Assembly (NCBI GenBank): GCA_026414745.1 | Contig: JAOAIK010000007.1 | Location: 1 to 64,000, forward strand | DNA from: Roseococcus sp. | GTDB taxonomy: Bacteria > Pseudomonadota > Alphaproteobacteria > Acetobacterales > Acetobacteraceae | Length of the DNA: 64,000 nt | Direction of reading: 5' to 3' | Part shown: positions 5,781-16,439 of the stretch, one piece after another | Layout of the letters: each line of letters starts with the position of its first letter | Position numbering within the stretch: the stretch's first letter is position 1 | Program-made: the position numbers and the translations under genes | The notes under the pieces: generated by a model | Seen by the model: the letters and a program-made list of their open reading frames with translations, nothing else | The model's database searches: none | Told to the model about the DNA's origin: nothing

Positions 5781-6461
5781 ATGCGGATTCTGCTGGTCGA
5801 GGACGACGCTGAAGTCGCCCGTTTCGTCAAGAAGGGGCTGCAGGAGGCGGGGCATACCGTCGAGCATGTGACCAATGGCCGCGACGGGCTGTTCCTGGCC
5901 GCGAGCGAGCCGTTCGACCTGCTGGTGCTGGATCGGATGCTCCCGGGCGGGGTGGACGGGGTGCGCCTGGTGGAGACGCTGCGCGGTCAGGGCAACCGCA
6001 CCCCGGTGCTGTTCCTCTCGGCGCTCAGTGCGGTCGATGAGCGGGTCAAGGGCCTCAAGGCCGGTGGCGATGACTATCTGGTCAAGCCCTTCGCGTTCGC
6101 CGAACTGCTCGCCCGCGTCGAGGCGCTGGGCCGGCGGCCGAGCGTCGATGCCCCGGTGACCAAGCTGCGCGTGGCCGATCTCGAACTCGATCTGCTCGCG
6201 CGCACCGTCACCCGCGCCGGCAAGAAGATCGACGTCCAGCCGCGGGAGTTCCGCCTGCTGGAACACCTGATGCGCCATGCCGGGCAGGTGGTCACCCGCA
6301 CCATGCTGCTCGAGAAGGTCTGGGACTACCACTTCGACCCGCAGACCAACGTGATCGACGTCCATGTCTCGCGCCTGCGGCAGAAGCTCGACCGCGGCTT
6401 CGACAAGCCGCTGATCCATACCGTGCGCAATGCGGGCTATATGATCCGCGCTGAGCCGTGA
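5781..6461 (+). CDS. OmpR/PhoB-family response regulator
   Basis: This DNA-binding regulator is activated by phosphorylation of an aspartate. It has 226 residues: receiver domain about 1-118 with acidic pocket E7-D8-D9, phospho-acceptor D51 (LLVLDRMLPGG) and the conserved Lys in YLVKPF; then a winged-helix DNA-binding domain about 130-225 (REFRLLEHLM, VWDYHFDP, VIDVHVSRLRQKL). Its stop overlaps the GTG start of the sensor kinase by four bases (GTGA), so the pair is translationally coupled. It is preceded by the HtrA-type protease, a likely member of the same regulon. Confidence 0.95.
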   Translation: MRILLVEDDAEVARFVKKGLQEAGHTVEHVTNGRDGLFLAASEPFDLLVLDRMLPGGVDGVRLVETLRGQGNRTPVLFLSALSAVDERVKGLKAGGDDYLVKPFAFAELLARVEALGRRPSVDAPVTKLRVADLELDLLARTVTRAGKKIDVQPREFRLLEHLMRHAGQVVTRTMLLEKVWDYHFDPQTNVIDVHVSRLRQKLDRGFDKPLIHTVRNAGYMIRAEP

Positions 6462-7888
6462 CCGCCCCGGCGCCGCCCGCGCGGAATCGGCCGCTGCCGG
6501 GCCTGCGCCCTGCGCTGCCGCGCCTGTTGCAGAGTGCGGGGCTGCGTTTCGCTGTCCTCTTCACCCTGGTCTTCGCCCTGGGCACCGTGGTGCTGGTGGC
6601 GGTGCTCTGGATCGCCACCGCCGCCTCGATCGACCGGCAGCTGCTGGCGGCCATCCGCGCCGATGCGGTGGCGCTGGCCGAGCGCTGGCGGACCGGCGGG
6701 GAGAGTGCGCTGATCGATGCGATCGAGGAGCGCATCGCCACCGATTCCACCAACCAGGCGCTCTATCTGCTGACGGATCGGCAGGGCGTGAAGCTCGCCG
6801 GCAATCTCGGCGCCTGGCCCGAGGGGGTCGAGATCGGCGCGAGCTTCCAGCGCACCAGCATCGTGCACGAGGGCGTGGCGGCCGATGCCCGGATCATCAC
6901 GCGCGATCTCGGCGGCCTGCGGCTGCTGGTCGGCCGCGACGAGGCCGAGCGGGTGCAGCTGCGCCTGCTGCTGACCGAAGGCGTGGTCTGGTCGCTCGGC
7001 GCCTCCCTGGTGATCGCGCTGATGGGAGCGGCGCTGATCCGCCAGGCGCTGGTCAACCGGCTGGATCCTGCCCTGCGGACGGCGATGCAGATCGCGGCCG
7101 GGGATCTGGCGCGACGGGTGCCGCTGTCGGGCCGCGGCGACGAGTTCGACCGCCTGGCCGAGACGATGAATGCCATGCTCGACCGCATCGAGGCGCTGAT
7201 GCAGGGCATCAAGGGAGTCTCGGATGCGATCGCGCATGACCTGCGCACGCCGATCGCGCGCGCCCGCTCCAAGCTCGAGGCGGGGCTTGCCCATGCGCGG
7301 GATGAGGGCGAGCTGCGGGCGGCGATGGAGGAGGGCATCGCCGATCTCGACCAGGTCAGCCGCATCTTCCAGGCCCTGCTGCGCATCGCGGAGGCCGAGG
7401 CGGGTGCGCGCCGCGCCGCCTTCGCCCCCTTCGACCTCACTGAGATGCTGCAGGATGCGGCCGAGTTCTATTCGGTGGCCGCGGAGGCGCGCGACCAGCA
7501 GCTGACGCTCGAGGCCAGGCCCGGCCTGCGCATGGTGGGCGATCGCGATCTGCTGCTGCAGGCGGTGATGAACCTGCTCGACAATGCCGTGAAGTTCACG
7601 CCGGAGGGCGGCCGCATCGTCCTCGCGGCCCAGCCGCAGGGGGAGGGCTGGGTGGAGGTGACGGTGGCCGACAGCGGCCCGGGCCTTGCTCCGGCAGACC
7701 GAGCCCGCGCGGGGGAGCGCTTCTTCCGCGCCGATGCCTCGCGCAACACGCCCGGGTCGGGCCTCGGCCTGTCCTTGGTGCGGGCGGTGGCGGCACTGCA
7801 TCGCGGCAGCCTGGAGCTGGCCGATGCCAAGCCGGGGGCCGACCCGCCCGGCCTGCTGGTGCGGCTGCGCCTGCCCCGGGCGAGCTGA
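6458..7888 (+). CDS. Sensor histidine kinase (EnvZ/PhoQ-like)
   Basis: This inner-membrane kinase is the partner of the preceding regulator. The 476-residue protein has two membrane segments (about 27-52 and 170-195) flanking a periplasmic sensor region of about 115 residues, then HAMP (about 195-248), HisKA with phospho-acceptor H260 in AIAHDLRTPI, and a HATPase domain with N-box (NLLDNAVKFT), DSGPGL and GSGLGLSLV boxes. It starts with GTG overlapping the regulator's stop. The gene order with HtrA suggests it senses envelope damage, but the ligand is not deducible. Confidence 0.95.
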   Translation: MTAPAPPARNRPLPGLRPALPRLLQSAGLRFAVLFTLVFALGTVVLVAVLWIATAASIDRQLLAAIRADAVALAERWRTGGESALIDAIEERIATDSTNQALYLLTDRQGVKLAGNLGAWPEGVEIGASFQRTSIVHEGVAADARIITRDLGGLRLLVGRDEAERVQLRLLLTEGVVWSLGASLVIALMGAALIRQALVNRLDPALRTAMQIAAGDLARRVPLSGRGDEFDRLAETMNAMLDRIEALMQGIKGVSDAIAHDLRTPIARARSKLEAGLAHARDEGELRAAMEEGIADLDQVSRIFQALLRIAEAEAGARRAAFAPFDLTEMLQDAAEFYSVAAEARDQQLTLEARPGLRMVGDRDLLLQAVMNLLDNAVKFTPEGGRIVLAAQPQGEGWVEVTVADSGPGLAPADRARAGERFFRADASRNTPGSGLGLSLVRAVAALHRGSLELADAKPGADPPGLLVRLRLPRAS

Positions 7889-8366: not shown

Positions 8367-8810
8367 TCACTCGGCCCGCAGCGCCGCCCGCGCCTCCTGC
8401 AGCCCGTCCGGATCGGTCAGCGCCGCCAGCCTGCGGCCCGCCGCCAGGGCGAAACGCTGCAGCAGCGCCCGCCGCCGGGCGGGCGGGAGCGGATGGTCGG
8501 GCGCTTCGCGCAGCAGGCAGCCGGCTGCCCCCTCGGCCACGATCACCCCGACCCCCTGGGGCAGCAGGGCGGGCGGGAAGGCGGGATCGACCGCGAAATA
8601 GAGGCGATCGCAGAAGGCGCGATAGCGCGGCCATTTGCGGTCGGCCAGGATATCGCGCGGGCCGGATTTCGCCTCGAGGATCAGGAACCGCCCATCCGGG
8701 CGCAGCACCCAGAGATCGGCGCGCAGCCCCTCGGGCAGCACGGCCTCGGGCAGGGCGGCCCAGCCCTGCAGCAGGCAGAAGCGCAGGGCCGCGCGCTGCA
8801 CCGGGCTCAC
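8367..8810 (-). CDS. mmcB: MmcB family DNA repair protein
   Basis: This 147-residue nuclease-fold protein (DUF1052) is known from alphaproteobacteria, where Caulobacter mmcB is damage-induced and needed for mitomycin C tolerance. Visible family features are [22 protein letters not shown], the [18 protein letters not shown] block and GVGVIVAE. The Asp/Glu-x-Lys arrangement in LEAKSG resembles a PD-(D/E)xK core. Its ATG overlaps the stop of the upstream phhB gene by four bases, so the two are co-transcribed. Confidence 0.85.
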
Positions 8811-9097
8811 GCGAGCAGGCGGTCGATCGCCTGGGCGAGGCGGATGTCGCGCATCGACAGCCCGCCCGCATCATGGGTGGTGAGCAGGATCTCGACCCGG
8901 TTCCAGACATTGGACCATTCCGGGTGGTGGTCCTGCGCCTCTGCCAGCAGGGCGACGCGGGACATGAAGCCCCAGGCGGCCGAGAAATCCGGGAAGCGGA
9001 AGCTGCGGGCGATCGCATCGCGCCCTTCGACCAGGCGCCATTCCGGCAGGAGCTGGGGCAGGGCGGCGCGGGTGGCGGCGTCGAGCTTGTCAACCAT
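8807..9097 (-). CDS. phhB: Pterin-4a-carbinolamine dehydratase
   Basis: The enzyme dehydrates 4a-hydroxy-tetrahydropterin, recycling the cofactor of aromatic amino acid hydroxylases. It has 96 residues from ATG ([10 protein letters not shown]). The family pattern is complete: [19 protein letters not shown] with the active-site His pair, then [20 protein letters not shown]. An upstream in-frame extension to 9271 lacks family similarity. No phenylalanine hydroxylase gene is in the window. It overlaps mmcB by four bases. Confidence 0.93.
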
Positions 9098-9203
9098 CGG
9101 TCGGATCCTCTCTCGCTCTGGGGGTGTTGTGCCGGTCTGCGATTTCGCGGCAAGGGGAGGCGGGCGCGCTGCGCCGCGCCGGGATCTGGGGATGGCAGGA
9201 GAG

Positions 9204-9596
9204 ATGCGCCACAGCACACCGCCCACGATCGAGGACATCGTGCGCATGGCCGAGCAGGCGCTCGCCGCCATCCCGCCCGAGTTGCGCGAGATGGTCCGGG
9301 GCTGTGCGATCGTGGTCGAGGAGGAGGCCGATGCGGAGACGCTCGCCGAACTCGGGCTCGACAGCCCATGGGAGCTGACCGGCCTCTACCGCGGCACGCC
9401 GCTGACGGCCAAATCGGTCATGGATGTCCCGCAGGCGCCCGATGCCATCCTGCTCTTCCGCCGTCCGATCCTGCTCGAATGGATCGAGACCGGCGAGGAC
9501 CTGTTCCGCCTAGTGCGCCATGTCCTGATCCACGAGATCGGCCATCACTTCGGCCTGACCGATCAGGACATCGCGCGGCTGGAGGCGGAGGGCTGA
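9204..9596 (+). CDS. Zincin-like metallopeptidase family protein (DUF1025)
   Basis: A 130-residue cytosolic protein of the minimal-zincin family, with the metal motif [11 protein letters not shown] near the C-terminus and the family's N-terminal helix and sheet ([25 protein letters not shown]). The start chosen has AGGAG only two bases upstream; ATG at 9192 is the alternative. Members are usually annotated as metallopeptidases, but no substrate is established and proteolysis is unproven. It is divergent from phhB and ends about 80 bases before the diiron-enzyme operon. Confidence 0.85.
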
Positions 9597-9620: not shown

Positions 9621-9656
9621 TTGACGCGGGCGGAGCCTGGGGCCTATTGTATACAA
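9621..9656 (+). promoter_or_regulatory. Promoter with overlapping GntR-type palindrome
   Basis: TTGACG (9621-9626) and TATTGT (9645-9650), 18 bases apart, form a plausible sigma70-type promoter. The perfect palindrome TTGTATACAA (9647-9656) overlaps the -10 element, so a bound protein would block it. The palindrome fits the TNGTNNNACNA type used by FadR/FCD-subfamily GntR regulators, and such a gene lies at 12038. A near-identical site precedes bchE at 12745. Confidence 0.55.
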
Positions 9657-9677: not shown

Positions 9678-10403
9678 ATGCCCGAACTCATGGACAAGGA
9701 CACGTTCCGCAAGGCGCTCGAGAACGCGATCAAGGGCAAGGCGGCGACCGGCTCTCCCTTCTCCAAGGCCTGGGCCGAGGGGCGGCTGACCCGCACCCAT
9801 CTCGCCCGCTGGGCCGAAAATCACTACAAGTATGTCGGGCCCTTCGCCGATTATCTGGGCTATGTCTATGCCCGGATGCCGCATCAGTATCTCGAGGCGA
9901 AGGATTTCCTGCTCGCCAACATGTATGAGGAGGAGATCGGCGGGGATCGCCACACCGACCTCCTGATCCGCTTCGCCGAGGCCTGCGGCACCACGCGCGA
10001 ACGCGTGCTTGACCCCGACAACTGCAACGCGACCACCCGGGCGCTGCAGGCGTGGTGCTACTGCGTGGCGATGCGCGAGGATCCGATCGTGGCCGTGGCC
10101 GGCCTCGTGGTCGGGCTCGAATCCCAGGTGCCCAGCATCTACCGCAAGCAGACGCCGACGCTGCGCGAGAAATACGGCTTCACCGACTACGAGCTCGAGT
10201 TCTTCGACCTGCACATCGTCAGCGACGAAATCCACGGCGAGCGCGGCTATCAGATCGTGCTCGAGCACGCGAACACGCCCGAACTCCAGCAGCGTTGCCT
10301 GCGCATCTGCGAGATCGGGGCGGAGATGCGCCTGCTCTACACCGACGGCCTCTATCGCGACTACGTGGAACCCGACCTCAACCCGCTGCAGCGCGCCGCC
10401 TGA
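9678..10403 (+). CDS. Haem-oxygenase-like diiron enzyme (CADD/PqqC-like)
   Basis: The 241-residue all-helical protein belongs to the TenA/PqqC/CADD fold family. A full ligand set for the haem-oxygenase-like diiron oxidases is visible: E85-x6-H92, E148, and H179-x3-D183-x2-H186, with spacing very like CADD, BesC and UndA. It therefore probably binds two irons and activates O2; the substrate is unknown. The start is fixed by GGGGAGG six bases upstream. It heads a tight operon with two [2Fe-2S] ferredoxins, likely electron donors. PqqC itself is metal-free and lacks this set, and no other pqq genes are here, so PQQ synthesis is unlikely. Confidence 0.85.
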   Translation: MPELMDKDTFRKALENAIKGKAATGSPFSKAWAEGRLTRTHLARWAENHYKYVGPFADYLGYVYARMPHQYLEAKDFLLANMYEEEIGGDRHTDLLIRFAEACGTTRERVLDPDNCNATTRALQAWCYCVAMREDPIVAVAGLVVGLESQVPSIYRKQTPTLREKYGFTDYELEFFDLHIVSDEIHGERGYQIVLEHANTPELQQRCLRICEIGAEMRLLYTDGLYRDYVEPDLNPLQRAA

Positions 10404-10420
10404 CGGTTGCGCCCTTGCCG

Positions 10421-10705
10421 GTGGTGACCATCCTCGCCGGCGGCGTCTCCTACAGCGAGGCGCTGCCGGATGGGTCGAATCTGGTGGTTCGCGCAGGGGT
10501 GCGGAAGTTTCCCTGGCCCCATCTCAAGTACAAATGCGGCATGGGCAAGTGCGGCACCTGCGCAAGCCGCGTGCTGGCCGGGGCCGAACACCTGCCCGAG
10601 CCCAACTGGAAGGAGCGCGAGAAGCTGGGCGCGCGCCTCGCCGAAGGATGGCGGCTGATGTGCCAGCTCTGGCCCACCCATGACCTGACGATCACGCAGG
10701 AGTGA
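10421..10705 (+). CDS. [2Fe-2S] ferredoxin (first of the operon)
   Basis: A plant-type ferredoxin domain of about 94 residues. Cluster cysteines C39, C44 and C47 (CGMGKCGTC) plus C81 (LMCQLW) form the CX4CX2C...C pattern. The start is uncertain: GTG at 10421 or 10424, or TTG at 10415, are all possible, and none has a strong ribosome binding site. It follows the diiron enzyme by 17 bases and is a probable one-electron donor to it. It is longer between the third and fourth cysteine than adrenodoxin types and has a tryptophan-rich loop before the cluster (FPWPHLKYK). Confidence 0.85.
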   Translation: MVTILAGGVSYSEALPDGSNLVVRAGVRKFPWPHLKYKCGMGKCGTCASRVLAGAEHLPEPNWKEREKLGARLAEGWRLMCQLWPTHDLTITQE

Positions 10706-10710
10706 CGGCC

Positions 10711-11010
10711 ATGCCCTATGTCATCCTGACCAGCAAACCCGGCCAGTTCCGCACTGAACCCGGCCCCGGGATGCGGCCGGTGGAGGGCTGGGACTACTTC
10801 TTCTGCGGCCGGATGCGCGCGCACTTCCTGATCGCCGAACTCGACCGCCCCACCAAGGTGCGCGTGGTCGACGAGGAGGGGCCGATCAATCCCGTGCCGA
10901 GCAAATTCCTGCCGAGTTTCGAGAGCCTTGAGGCGGCGCGGGCCGAGCTGCGCAGCCTGGTCAGCTTCGGTTCGATGCCGGTCGAGCTCCGGCCCGCCGC
11001 GGCGGCATGA
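10711..11010 (+). CDS. Unknown 99-aa protein between two ferredoxin genes
   Basis: I do not recognise this family. The protein is soluble, with aromatic and charged patches (EGWDYFFCGRMRAHFLIAEL), one cysteine and an Ala-rich tail. CAGGAG lies eight bases upstream of the ATG chosen; a GTG at 10702 overlapping the previous stop is the alternative. Its stop overlaps the next ferredoxin by four bases (ATGA). Tight coupling on both sides suggests a dedicated accessory role in the same redox system, for instance docking or substrate handling, but that is inference. Confidence 0.75.
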   Translation: MPYVILTSKPGQFRTEPGPGMRPVEGWDYFFCGRMRAHFLIAELDRPTKVRVVDEEGPINPVPSKFLPSFESLEAARAELRSLVSFGSMPVELRPAAAA

Positions 11011-11366
11011 CCGGCACGACGGCCGAGGGCGAGGAAACATCGCCCCGGCGTATTACCATCACCTTCGCCACCAGCGGCGTGATCGCCACCGCCCAGGCGG
11101 GCAGCAGCCTGCTGCGTGTCTCGATCCGAGAGAAGGGCGGCATCCCCTGGAAGTGCGGCGGCGGGGTCTGCGGCACCTGCCGCTGCCGGATCGAGGCCGG
11201 GCGGGAGCATGCCGACCGCATCAAGCCCAAGGAGCGCCAGCACCTGAGCGAGGAGGAGCTGGCCCAGGGCTTCCGCATGGCCTGCCAGACCTTCGTCGCG
11301 GGGGATGTCACCGTCTCCTGGGTGCCGCGCGCCACCTCGCCCGACGGCAGGGTCAAGGCTGGCTGA
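11007..11366 (+). CDS. [2Fe-2S] ferredoxin (second of the operon)
   Basis: A 119-residue plant-type ferredoxin. The cluster ligands are C50, C55, C58 and C93 (KCGGGVCGTC and MACQT); an extra cysteine, C60, follows in CRC. The N-terminal 13 residues are an acidic extension absent from the first ferredoxin. The ATG overlaps the preceding stop. Two different ferredoxins in one operon suggest either two redox steps or separate partners. No ferredoxin reductase is encoded nearby, so electrons must come from a reductase elsewhere. Confidence 0.9.
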   Translation: MTGTTAEGEETSPRRITITFATSGVIATAQAGSSLLRVSIREKGGIPWKCGGGVCGTCRCRIEAGREHADRIKPKERQHLSEEELAQGFRMACQTFVAGDVTVSWVPRATSPDGRVKAG

Positions 11367-12744: not shown

Positions 12745-12754
12745 CTGTATACAA
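12745..12754. promoter_or_regulatory. Second GntR-type palindrome, upstream of bchE
   Basis: CTGTATACAA shares the 11-mer TGTATACAAAC with the site at 9648-9658. These are the only two GTATAC-centred palindromes I noticed in the window. It lies 57 bases past the gntR stop and 108 bases before bchE. Confidence 0.45.
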
Positions 12755-12862: not shown

Positions 12863-14485
12863 ATGCGCATCCTTTTCATCCATCCCAACTACCATTCGGG
12901 CGGGGCGGAGATCGCCGGCAACTGGCCCCCGGCCTGGGTTGCCTATCTGACCGGAGTGCTGAAGCAGGCCGGCTTTTCGGATGTGCACGTCATCGATGCG
13001 ATGACGGATCGCCTCGACGATGCCGTGCTGCGCGCCCGGATCGCGCAGCTGCAGCCTGACATCCTCGGCACGACGGCGATCACCCCCGCGATCTATGCCG
13101 CCGAACGGCTGCTCGCCCTGGCCAAGGAGGTCTCACCGCGCACCCTCACCGTGCTCGGCGGGATCCACGCGACCTTCATGTACCGTCAGGTCCTGGCCGA
13201 GGCGCCCTGGATCGACTGCATCGTCCGCGGCGAGGGCGAGGAGATCATGGTCGAGGTCGCGCGCGCCGCCGCCGCCGGCGATTTCGCCGCCGCACGCGCC
13301 GCCATCAAGGGCATCGCCTATCTCGAGGACGGGAAAGTGGTGGCCACGCCCGCCGCGCCGACCATCCGGAATCTCGATGCGCTCTGCCCTGACTGGTCGA
13401 TCCTCGAGTGGGGGAAATACACCTACATCCCGCTCGGCACCCGGGTGGCGATCCCGAACTTCGCGCGCGGCTGTCCCTTCACCTGCAGCTTCTGCAGCCA
13501 ATGGAAATTCTGGCGCGACTATCGCATCCGCGACCCGCGCCGGGTGGTCGACGAGATCGTGAGGCTGCGCGATGAGCACGGTGTGGGCTTCTTCATCCTG
13601 GCCGATGAGGAGCCCACCATCAACCGCAAGAAGTTCGTCGCCTTCTGCCAGGAGCTGATCGACCGCAAGGTCGGTCTGCTGTGGGGTATGAACACCCGCG
13701 TCACCGACATCATCCGCGATGCCGATCTGCTGCCCTTCTACCGCCGCGCCGGCCTGATCCACGTCTCGCTCGGGACCGAGGCGGCGGCGCAGCTCAAGCT
13801 CGACCTCTTCCGCAAGGAGACCACGATCGCACAGAACAAGCGCGCCATCCGCCTGCTGCGCGAGGCGGGAATCGTGGTCGAGGCGCAGTTCATCGTCGGC
13901 CTGGAGAACGAGACGCCGGAGACGCTGGAGGAGACCTATCGCATGGCGCGGGATTGGGATCCCGATCTCGCCAACTGGTCGATGTACACGCCCTGGCCCT
14001 TCAGCGACCTCTTCCGCGAGCTCGGAGATCGGGTCGAGATCTTCGACTACGAGAAGTACAACTTCGTCACGCCGATCATCAAACCCGCGGCGATGGACCG
14101 CGCCGAGCTGCTCGATCGGGTGATGCACAACTACCGCCGCTTTTATGCGCGCAAGGCGCTGTTCTCCTACCCCTTCGCCGGCAGCGGGGAACGGCGGCGC
14201 TATCTGCTGGGCTGCCTCAAGGCCTTCCTCAAGGCCGGCTTCCGCCGCACCTTCTACGATCTGGGCAAGGTCGGCTACTGGGGACCACAGTCCAGGAAGA
14301 AGGTCGATTTCCGCTTCGATACCGCCCGCCGCCGCGCCGATCCCGACGAGGTGGAATGGACCAGCGTGCACAACCGGCGCAGCGTGGGAGAAAGGCCCGC
14401 CGCGCGGAAGGCCATGGCCTGCGGCGGGGGCAGCGAACAGCTGATGGAGGAGGGCCCAGCCGATGGCGGTCGCAACCCTTCGTGA
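12863..14485 (+). CDS. bchE: Anaerobic Mg-protoporphyrin IX monomethyl ester cyclase
   Basis: BchE forms the isocyclic ring E of bacteriochlorophyll without O2, using radical SAM chemistry and cobalamin. The 540-residue protein has an N-terminal B12-binding-type domain (about 1-140; [19 protein letters not shown]) and a radical SAM core with C204-x3-C208-x2-C211 (CPFTCSFC), followed by the [10 protein letters not shown] and [10 protein letters not shown] segments characteristic of BchE. GGGAG sits seven bases before the ATG. The C-terminal about 40 residues are low-complexity and overlap bchJ by 23 bases. The FNR-type box upstream suggests induction at low oxygen. Confidence 0.95.
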
Positions 14486-15077
14486 GGCGGGCTCCCTGCC
14501 GGCCGAGGAACCGGTCGGCCGCATCGGCCCCAATGCGGTCCTGCAGCTCTCCGATGTGCTGCTGGAACAGGACGGGGCAGAGGCGAGGCGGCGCATCTTC
14601 CAGGCGGCGGGCCTGCTGCGCCACCTGGCCAGCCCGCCCTCGACGATGGTCGAGGAGCGCGAGGTCGCGAGACTGTTCGGCGCGCTGGAGCAGGAGCTGG
14701 GCCGGCCGGCCGCGCTCGAGCGCATCCGCCGCGCCGGGCAGCGCACGGCGGAATATCTGCTGGCCCATCGCATTCCGCCGCTTGCCCGGATGCTGCTGCC
14801 CAACCTGCCGGCGAGCTTCGCCGCGGTGCTGCTGACGCGCTCGATCCAGCGCCATGGCTGGACCTTCCTGGGTTCGGGCAGCCTGGCGGTGGTCCGCGGC
14901 CAGCCGCTCGGCATCCGCATCCGCTTGGCCGATGCGCTGGCGCGGCATGCCGCGCTGGCCTCCGAATACTACCGCTCTGCCTTCGAGGAGCTGTTTCGCG
15001 CCCTGGTCCACCCCGCGGCGCACGCCCTGCCTCAGCCTGCGCCCGCCGGCATCTGCCGCTTCGACATCCTCTGGTAG
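14463..15077 (+). CDS. bchJ: BchJ, bacteriochlorophyll biosynthesis V4R-domain protein
   Basis: The 204-residue protein carries a C-terminal V4R domain (about 95-190; [21 protein letters not shown]). It is annotated by tradition as 4-vinyl (8-vinyl) protochlorophyllide reductase, but the reductase activity is now credited to BciA/BciB and related enzymes, and BchJ is better viewed as a porphyrin-binding accessory factor. It overlaps bchE by 23 bases in another frame and precedes hemN by 45 bases, consistent with one low-oxygen tetrapyrrole operon. Confidence 0.9.
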
Positions 15078-15122
15078 GTCGGCCATGACGGCGCGCCTTT
15101 TCCTGCCCAAGGACATCGCCCG

Positions 15123-16439
15123 ATGAACAGCGCTCGCCTCGTCCTCGCGGAACGCCAGGTGCCGCGCTACACCTCCTATCCCACAGCCCCGCATTTCCAC
15201 CCCGGCATCGGGCCGCGCGAATACGCGGATTGGCTGGCTGCGCTGCCGGCGGAGGCGACGCTTTCGCTCTACCTCCATGTCCCTTTCTGCCAGGCGATGT
15301 GCGCCTATTGCGGCTGCCATACCAAGGTGGTGCGCAGGCCGGAGCCGATCGAGGCCTATCTCGCCGCGCTGCTGGCCGAGATCGAGCTGGTCTCCGACGC
15401 CACCGCGGCGCGGCGCGTGACGCATCTGCACTGGGGCGGGGGCACGCCGACCATGCTCGGCCTGCCGGGCATGGCACGGGTGATGGAGGCTCTGGCCCGC
15501 CGCTTCGACCTCTCGGCCCTCGCCGAACATGCGATCGAACTCGACCCGCGCGCGATGACGGAGGAGACGGCGCGCGGCCTGGCGGGGCTGGGCACCAACC
15601 GGGCGAGCCTCGGCGTGCAGGACTTCAACGCCGCGGTGCAGCGCGCGATCGGGCGGATCCAGCCCTATGACGTGGTGGCGGCGGCGGTCGAGCATCTGCG
15701 CCGGCATGGCATCCGCTCGATCAACCTCGATCTGATGTATGGCCTGCCGCTGCAGGACCGCGAGGGGCTGCTGCGCAGCCTGGAGCTCGCGCATGGCTTG
15801 GCCCCCGATCGGATCGCGCTCTTCGGCTATGCCCATGTGCCCTGGATGAAGAAGCATCAGCGGCTGATCGAGGAGGGCACGCTGCCCGGGCCGCAAGCCC
15901 GGCTGATGCAGGCCGAGGCCGCGCGCAGCCTGCTGCTCGGCCTCGGCTACATGGGCGTGGGGCTCGATCACTTCGCCCGCCCGGAGGATGAGCTGGCCCG
16001 CGCCGCGCGGGAGGGGCGGCTGCGGCGCAACTTCCAGGGCTATACGACCGATGCCGCGGATGCGCTGATCGGTCTCGGCGCCTCCGCGATCGGGCGTCTG
16101 CCGCAGGGCTTCGTGCAGAACCGGCCGGATCTGCGCGCCTATCGCGCCGCGATCGCAGCCGGGCGCTTCGCCACCCAGCGCGGCAAGGCGCTGAGCGCCG
16201 ATGACCTGCTGCGCGGAGCGATCATCGAGCGGCTGATGTGCGATTTCGCGGTGGAGGTGGATCGGGCGATGCTGGAAGAGGTCCGCCCGCGCCTCGCCCC
16301 GCTCGCCGAACAGGGTATCGTGACCCTGCGCGGGGGGCGCATCGTCGTCACGGCCGAAGGGCGGCCTTTCGTGCGGCTGGTGGCTGCCGCCTTCGACGCC
16401 TATCTCGACCAAGCGGGGCGGCACAGCGCGGCGGTCTGA
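15123..16439 (+). CDS. hemN: Oxygen-independent coproporphyrinogen III oxidase
   Basis: HemN decarboxylates coproporphyrinogen III to protoporphyrinogen IX with two SAM molecules. The 438-residue protein opens with VPRYTSYPTAPHF and LYLHVPFC, binds [4Fe-4S] through C56, C60 and C63 with a fourth cysteine in CGC as in the E. coli enzyme, and contains HWGGGTPT and LDLMYGLPLQ. Length fits HemN rather than the shorter HemW-like proteins. It feeds both haem and the bchE-dependent bacteriochlorophyll branch. An aerobic hemF lies at 45160. Confidence 0.95.
   Translation: MNSARLVLAERQVPRYTSYPTAPHFHPGIGPREYADWLAALPAEATLSLYLHVPFCQAMCAYCGCHTKVVRRPEPIEAYLAALLAEIELVSDATAARRVTHLHWGGGTPTMLGLPGMARVMEALARRFDLSALAEHAIELDPRAMTEETARGLAGLGTNRASLGVQDFNAAVQRAIGRIQPYDVVAAAVEHLRRHGIRSINLDLMYGLPLQDREGLLRSLELAHGLAPDRIALFGYAHVPWMKKHQRLIEEGTLPGPQARLMQAEAARSLLLGLGYMGVGLDHFARPEDELARAAREGRLRRNFQGYTTDAADALIGLGASAIGRLPQGFVQNRPDLRAYRAAIAAGRFATQRGKALSADDLLRGAIIERLMCDFAVEVDRAMLEEVRPRLAPLAEQGIVTLRGGRIVVTAEGRPFVRLVAAAFDAYLDQAGRHSAAV

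Follow-up and report, generated by a model that had tools for sequence, protein, structure and literature searches.

We analyzed a 64,000-nt window of DNA from Roseococcus sp. (assembly GCA_026414745.1, contig JAOAIK010000007.1, positions 1 to 64,000) that carries, at 9678-11366, four adjacent genes for a haem-oxygenase-like dimetal oxygenase/oxidase (HDO), a [2Fe-2S] ferredoxin (FdA), a protein of 99 amino acids (the 99-aa protein) and a second [2Fe-2S] ferredoxin (FdB). Judged from sequence, this gene set is a real, conserved multi-component HDO system with a plausible function; no published description of it was found in the open-licence literature, which does not prove absence. According to the reading that we favour, and to which we give roughly an even chance (about 0.5), the system would be a multi-component, ferredoxin-driven HDO oxygenase that carries out an early oxidative step in the catabolism of an imported, often amide-released organic acid. 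An earlier note on this DNA had proposed the four-gene operon, and all four genes lie where it placed them. The unit itself appears to be larger: an HbpS-like gene and a GntR/FCD-family regulator gene, which the note missed together with the regulon seen in relatives, belong to it (Table 1).

Conservation and components of the HDO gene set

We measured conservation in the best 80 of 254 relatives (the named loci, 17 of them shorter than 20 kb), and the counts consequently lean to close relatives; open reading frames in relatives were called with a simple GC-position caller, which misplaced some starts. FdA and the 99-aa gene are each present in 79 of these 80 loci, FdB in 78, the HbpS-like gene in 75 and the GntR gene in 73; a permease is present in 63, an aldehyde dehydrogenase (ALDH) in 55 and a reductase in 53. 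FdA, the 99-aa gene and FdB are collinear in 77/80 named loci, distant taxa included (a count that misses locus L078, where the FdB frame is fused), and all three are present in every one of the 63 loci longer than 20 kb. At L078:7708-9033 (-), a single frame of 442 aa encodes FdB together with an alpha/beta hydrolase; provided that the assembly is correct, this is a natural fusion.

The earlier note had looked to gene order and co-occurrence across genomes as its checks, and both came out in its favour. Within the window's family, 12 of 100 genomes contain the 99-aa gene and the same 12 contain an HDO scoring above 500 bits; in the family of genome G353, 36 of 200 contain the 99-aa gene and, again, the same 36 the HDO. 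Over these 300 genomes, the two genes occur together in 48 and singly in none, and no further HDO-like match exceeds 60 bits. In each of the 48, both genes share a contig, 0.3-7.4 kb apart. Together with the 80-89% identity of the HDO to 25 homologues from alpha- and betaproteobacteria, the 77/80 collinearity and the lack of a single discordant genome lead us to conclude that the operon is not a chance arrangement. Outside both families the 99-aa gene is rare, with 4 matching genomes of 398 in a phylum sample (the window genome included) and no match beyond the seed genome in class samples of 321 and 337 genomes. Among 72,556 plasmids, six records match the HDO, and those same six also match the 99-aa gene. 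Cupriavidus and Achromobacter are the most frequent carriers of the cluster. An HDO profile searched against 249 phylum genomes matched the window genome, a diverged copy in G237 (212 bits) and G200 (50 bits); the G200 match adjoins a gene resembling metE.

The HDO matches the Pfam family Haem_oxygenas_2 (E 2.4e-34) and also TENA_THI-4. In NCBIfam, the CADD and PqqC families match it, both below cut-off, and the best family, TIGR04305, reaches 94.5 bits against a curated cut-off of 200. The six ligands named by the earlier note, E85, H92, E148, H179, D183 and H186, are correctly numbered, fit the 3H/3C pattern E-x6-H, E, H-x3-D-x2-H and are invariant in 26/26 homologues picked for diversity (mean column identity 84%). 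In the alignment they stand in register with the CADD sequence, whose corresponding residues we take to be ligands. The AlphaFold2 (AF2) model, with a mean predicted local distance difference test score (pLDDT) of 85.8, has the helical fold of the HDO superfamily; Foldseek ranks CtCADD (8va9) first, with template modelling (TM) scores of 0.80/0.89, and then PqqC, UndA, HrmI, BesC and others. By its alignment, the HDO is a haem-oxygenase-like dimetal enzyme with complete ligands and a predicted metal content.

Two different ferredoxins had been claimed, and the data bear this out. Both contain a Fer2 (Pfam) domain; the CX4CX2C...C motif is intact in 85/85 distinct FdA homologues, and the four Cys of FdB are intact in 87/88, the 88th being cut by a contig end. 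FdA and FdB are only about 35-40% alike, in the window as in Caballeronia. We drew a rough Fer2 tree with few columns from 23 FdA, 23 FdB and 12 reductase rows, together with two of the six other own-genome ferredoxins tried, covering loci from Roseomonadaceae, Alcaligenaceae, Burkholderiaceae, Comamonadaceae, Oxalobacteraceae and Nitrobacteraceae, among others. FdB forms one clade apart from FdA with a support of 100/100; FdA is not a single clade in the rooted drawing, so that only the FdB clade is firmly supported, and the bootstrap as a whole is unsettled. The genes are tightly packed: FdA most likely starts at a TTG 11 nt past the HDO stop (its frame is open from 10403), 5 nt separate it from the 99-aa gene, and the latter overlaps FdB by 4 nt.

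The 99-aa protein, which the earlier note could not assign, has no Pfam or NCBIfam match at E <= 0.001. Its mean column identity is 55% across 39 sequences, and none of its invariant or nearly invariant columns holds a Cys or His, which makes a metal cofactor unlikely. An AF2 model (pLDDT 90.5) contains strands at residues 3-9, 13-16, 21-31, 34-44, 49-54 and 59-63, a helix at 73-84 and a final strand at 91-96. When this model was compared with the PDB by Foldseek, 0 of 390 matches (E <= 10) reached E <= 0.001, the best having an E of 0.23; MmoB/TmoD were not among the best 50 of the 390, a missing match being no proof of a different fold. Searching the PDB by sequence yielded nothing above chance level: the matches were antibody light chains for the most part, and the best E was 0.031. 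We propose that the protein is an effector-like or scaffold subunit.

A probable shared operator and the proposed regulon in relatives

We found a palindrome, TTGTATACAA, 22-31 bp upstream of the HDO start, where 0 are expected in 64 kb. Within the 3.2-Mb genome, the form TGTATACAA is confined to two sites, one before the HDO and one before bchE, the latter 56 bp past the GntR gene; from this position, the regulator may touch bchE too. In relatives, we counted the core GTATAC within 200 bp upstream of each gene, against a background of one per 4.0 kb. It precedes the HDO in 75/85 cases, the permease in 67/68, ALDH in 32/59 and GntR in 38/77, compared to 9/83 for FdA, 2/79 for HbpS, 7/33 for an OCD gene, and 0/83, 0/82 and 0/57 for the 99-aa gene, FdB and the reductase. 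Nine of the 10 HDO genes without the core have the permease directly upstream. Within about 300 bp, it also precedes 21/21 amidase and 43/48 TauE-family permease genes, with 0/22 for MFS genes (which follow the amidase), 0/3 for GGT and 0/7 for alpha/beta hydrolase. These counts are not independent because divergent neighbour genes share one site. A shared operator-like palindrome stands upstream of several cluster operons, as in a GntR/FCD catabolic regulon, and in Burkholderiales it links the HDO with permease genes, an operon of amidase and transporter, and an aldehyde dehydrogenase gene. We infer that the GntR protein, a predicted repressor, binds at the GTATAC sites.

The genes brought together in this way recur in several forms. 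An amidase gene followed by an aromatic-acid/H+ symport-like MFS gene is present in Cupriavidus (18 loci) and in two further genera (three loci in all). A GGT-family gene lies beside the HDO in L040 and L094, another in the cluster of L046 and a weaker one in L155; the L078 cluster has a carboxylesterase, and an alpha/beta hydrolase comes after FdB in L025 and L150-L154. In two close relatives of the window, a TctC-type receptor gene is 131 bp (L030) and 81 bp (L031) from the HDO. The larger Burkholderiales clusters contain a BenC/MmoC-like reductase; in a family scan of the Caballeronia copy, it has a Fer2 domain of its own. We read the ensemble, from its gene content, as a probable catabolic regulon in which a recurring hydrolysis, often of an amide, is combined with an oxidation by the HDO and with the oxidation of an aldehyde. 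The conserved permease, about 510-540 aa long (e.g. L042:13497-15068), has no Pfam, NCBIfam or PDB match and is possibly an undescribed transporter family. In Cupriavidus basilensis L046, there are two HDO genes, 5903-6694 and 10001-10729, about 3.3 kb apart; one set includes ALDH, HbpS, reductase and GntR genes, and the other OCD and FdA/99-aa/FdB genes.

Proposed mechanism and competing explanations

In the favoured reading, NAD(P)H would reduce a flavin/[2Fe-2S] reductase, which is cluster-encoded in Burkholderiales and presumably a housekeeping enzyme in the window organism. FdA and FdB would then relay the electrons to the dimetal site of the HDO, where O2 would be activated, while the cofactor-free 99-aa protein would dock, in the role of effector or scaffold, on the HDO or on the ferredoxins. 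The HbpS-like protein, of the HbpS/EfgA/GlcG/PduO-C (DUF336) family, would bind, protect or sense a reactive product such as an aldehyde. In the accessible part of one source, EfgA binds formaldehyde and HbpS binds haem (PMC8153426); by analogy with EfgA, the protein encoded here may bind a reactive aldehyde. The GntR/FCD repressor would govern the set through its GTATAC operators, along with the transporters, amidase and aldehyde dehydrogenase of relatives, and it is because this control joins the HDO to such genes that a catabolic role seems the most likely one. An N-heterocyclic acid, a gamma-glutamyl amide and an aromatic amide were considered as substrates; the data point to no particular compound and favour only an amide-linked organic acid, in Burkholderiales. 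Picolinate/dipicolinate catabolism was also considered as the role, and nothing supported it.

Several observations weigh against this reading. Only 52/80 named loci have the HDO immediately before FdA on one strand, and many Cupriavidus have the HDO and the ferredoxin triple as separate units about 4 kb apart. OCD is present in 29/80 named loci and the alpha/beta hydrolase in 1/80; among the 63 long loci, HbpS is absent from 2 and GntR from 4. A diverged HDO (44-46% identity) in the alphaproteobacterium G237 (L143:9269-11147) keeps HbpS and GntR and adjoins a Rieske protein; within the 19.5 kb examined around it, homologues of FdA, the 99-aa protein and FdB are all absent. The HDO fold by itself can therefore do without these partners, and the Rieske protein may perhaps provide the same core with electrons in another way. 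The HDO model has a pLDDT below 50 at residues 87-90, within the ligand region, and the five models spread from 51.0 to 85.8 in mean pLDDT; for this reason, the ligand site is placed by homology to CtCADD and by invariance. In the window genome, which is 91.5% complete, nothing matches the cluster reductase better than a protein of 28% identity (E 7.6e-13), the permease profile matched nothing in a search run without a positive control, and the window cluster contains no ALDH or amidase. Consequently, the catabolic role is extrapolated from relatives and is weaker for the window genome itself.

We compared the set with two known kinds of multi-component system. MboA/MboB (mangotoxin, 2026) pairs an acetylenase HDO with a dedicated NAD(P)H/flavin/[2Fe-2S] reductase and, as far as the available portion of the source goes, is possibly the first characterised pair of an HDO and a dedicated redox partner (PMC13185094). 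The likeness lies in the dedicated flavin/[2Fe-2S] partner; the difference, within that portion of the source, is that MboA/MboB is biosynthetic and has one reductase, without separate ferredoxins or a cofactor-free third protein. The earlier note's remark that no known HDO has such partners must therefore be corrected on one point, the dedicated reductase. Its proposal of an undescribed ferredoxin-driven oxygenase or oxidase stands in its architectural part, through the conserved order, the complete ligands, the two retained ferredoxins and the Burkholderiales reductase; the reaction itself is predicted.

Soluble methane monooxygenase (sMMO) and the toluene monooxygenases consist of an oxygenase, a [2Fe-2S] carrier, a BenC/MmoC-type reductase and a cofactor-free protein of about 100 aa. 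The component make-up of these bacterial multicomponent diiron monooxygenases parallels that of the present cluster in architecture only. Theirs is a multi-subunit hydroxylase with a ferritin-like fold, whereas ours has the HDO fold and is not a ferritin-like diiron hydroxylase. As a more speculative extension, which we hold to be possible and rather doubtful, the 99-aa protein would gate O2 activation, the system would be an independently evolved HDO-fold counterpart of the soluble methane and toluene monooxygenases, and the two ferredoxins would act in series or serve two steps of a multi-electron oxidation. The favoured reading, for its part, would already repeat the logic of soluble diiron monooxygenases on another fold. 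If the proposals are true, the set goes beyond MboA/MboB by its two ferredoxins and its cofactor-free protein, and amounts to a multi-component, multi-turnover and probably catabolic HDO, whose 99-aa protein co-occurs with it always in the families sampled. HDO re-reduction and gating become directly testable, and with the defined regulon (permease, amidase, ALDH) the substrate could be sought in hosts that are easy to work with, Cupriavidus for example.

Of the other explanations, a biosynthetic HDO, which would make a small signal or metal-binding metabolite for the transporters to export, is unlikely in our judgement. It would agree with the description of studied HDOs as enzymes of natural-product and small-molecule biosynthesis, in the parts available of two sources (PMC13108848; PMC13232832), with the biosynthetic role of MboA/B, with the lack of a dedicated permease match in the window genome and with an AMP-binding enzyme near the diverged HDO of L143. 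However, no nonribosomal peptide synthetase (NRPS) or ATP-grasp ligase was seen in the subset of neighbour proteins scanned, the GntR/FCD-type operator is common to the HDO, permease, amidase and ALDH, and the amidase, GGT and carboxylesterase genes are hydrolytic. An oxygen- or peroxide-protective, DtpC-like oxidase that draws its electrons from the ferredoxins, with HbpS for redox sensing, is quite improbable, since the regulon looks catabolic instead and no catalase is found among the proteins scanned. What speaks for it comes partly from two sources: the HDO-domain protein DtpC of Acinetobacter is required to withstand the oxidative stress brought on by desiccation (PMC13232832), and Streptomyces HbpS reacts to haem/iron stress (PMC8153426). 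In addition, a gene for a universal stress protein adjoins the Achromobacter cluster L042, and its frame is matched in 23 other loci, but we take it, on blast evidence, as Achromobacter synteny.

A CADD/PabS-type self-sacrificing p-aminobenzoate (pABA) synthase, or some other member of the PqqC/CADD branch that makes a cofactor, beside incidental ferredoxin genes, is a very improbable account, even though the closest solved structures by sequence and by fold are 4-aminobenzoate synthases and PqqC and the best sequence family is TIGR04305. CtCADD/NePabS, the closest of them, has equal ligand spacing. However, the score of the HDO is far below the family's cut-off; Ser29, which aligns with CADD Tyr27 (presumably the sacrificed Tyr), is Ser in 26/26 homologues; and the ferredoxin linkage here is strict. 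A pterin-4a-carbinolamine dehydratase gene (Pfam) upstream of the operon, at 8807-9271 (-), would suit a cofactor-making enzyme, but it is found in no locus beyond the window genome, its near-identical counterpart L029 and L032, where it also stands beside the cluster. The proximity of bchE, bchJ and hemN, which directly follow, and the restriction of TGTATACAA to sites before the HDO and bchE would fit a tetrapyrrole/bacteriochlorophyll step. We regard this as the remotest of the explanations: among the loci searched, bchE adjoins the cluster only in the window genome and in L029, Roseococcus L030 (which we take to be photosynthetic) lacks bchE in its 20.7 kb, and the most frequent carriers, Cupriavidus and Achromobacter, are not known to be phototrophs.

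Feature coordinates and surroundings

Table 1. Coordinates of the HDO cluster genes and predicted operator sites in the window
Feature	Position	Strand	Basis or remark
HDO, haem-oxygenase-like dimetal oxygenase/oxidase, 241 aa	9678..10403	+	PF14518, ligands, fold
FdA, plant-type [2Fe-2S] ferredoxin	about 10415..10705	+	Fer2 E 5e-9
99-aa protein, proposed effector/scaffold subunit	10711..11010	+	between FdA and FdB
FdB, plant-type [2Fe-2S] ferredoxin	11007..11366	+	Fer2 E 1e-13
HbpS/GlcG/EfgA-like (DUF336) protein, 159 aa	11514..11993	-	PF03928 E 6.8e-33
GntR/FCD-family regulator, 216 aa	12038..12688	+	PF00392 and PF07729
TTGTATACAA palindrome, probable GntR/FCD operator (predicted) before HDO operon	9647..9656	not assigned	
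Second operator-like site (CTGTATACAA), membership uncertain	12745..12754		108 bp upstream of bchE

The HbpS-like protein is 76% identical to its counterpart in an annotated Caballeronia plasmid cluster, and the GntR protein is 46-47% identical to the regulator of that cluster. A near-identical locus is found in the metagenome-assembled genome (MAG) Rhodovarius sp. SKYG64 (L029), with identities of 100% for the HDO, 99% for the 99-aa protein, 98% for FdB and 99.6% for BchE. Just upstream of the operon, a frame at about 9250-9596 (+) contains the motif HEIGHHFG, presumably metallopeptidase-like. After the operon come bchE (12863), bchJ (14463) and hemN (15123), which together span 12863-16439 (+).

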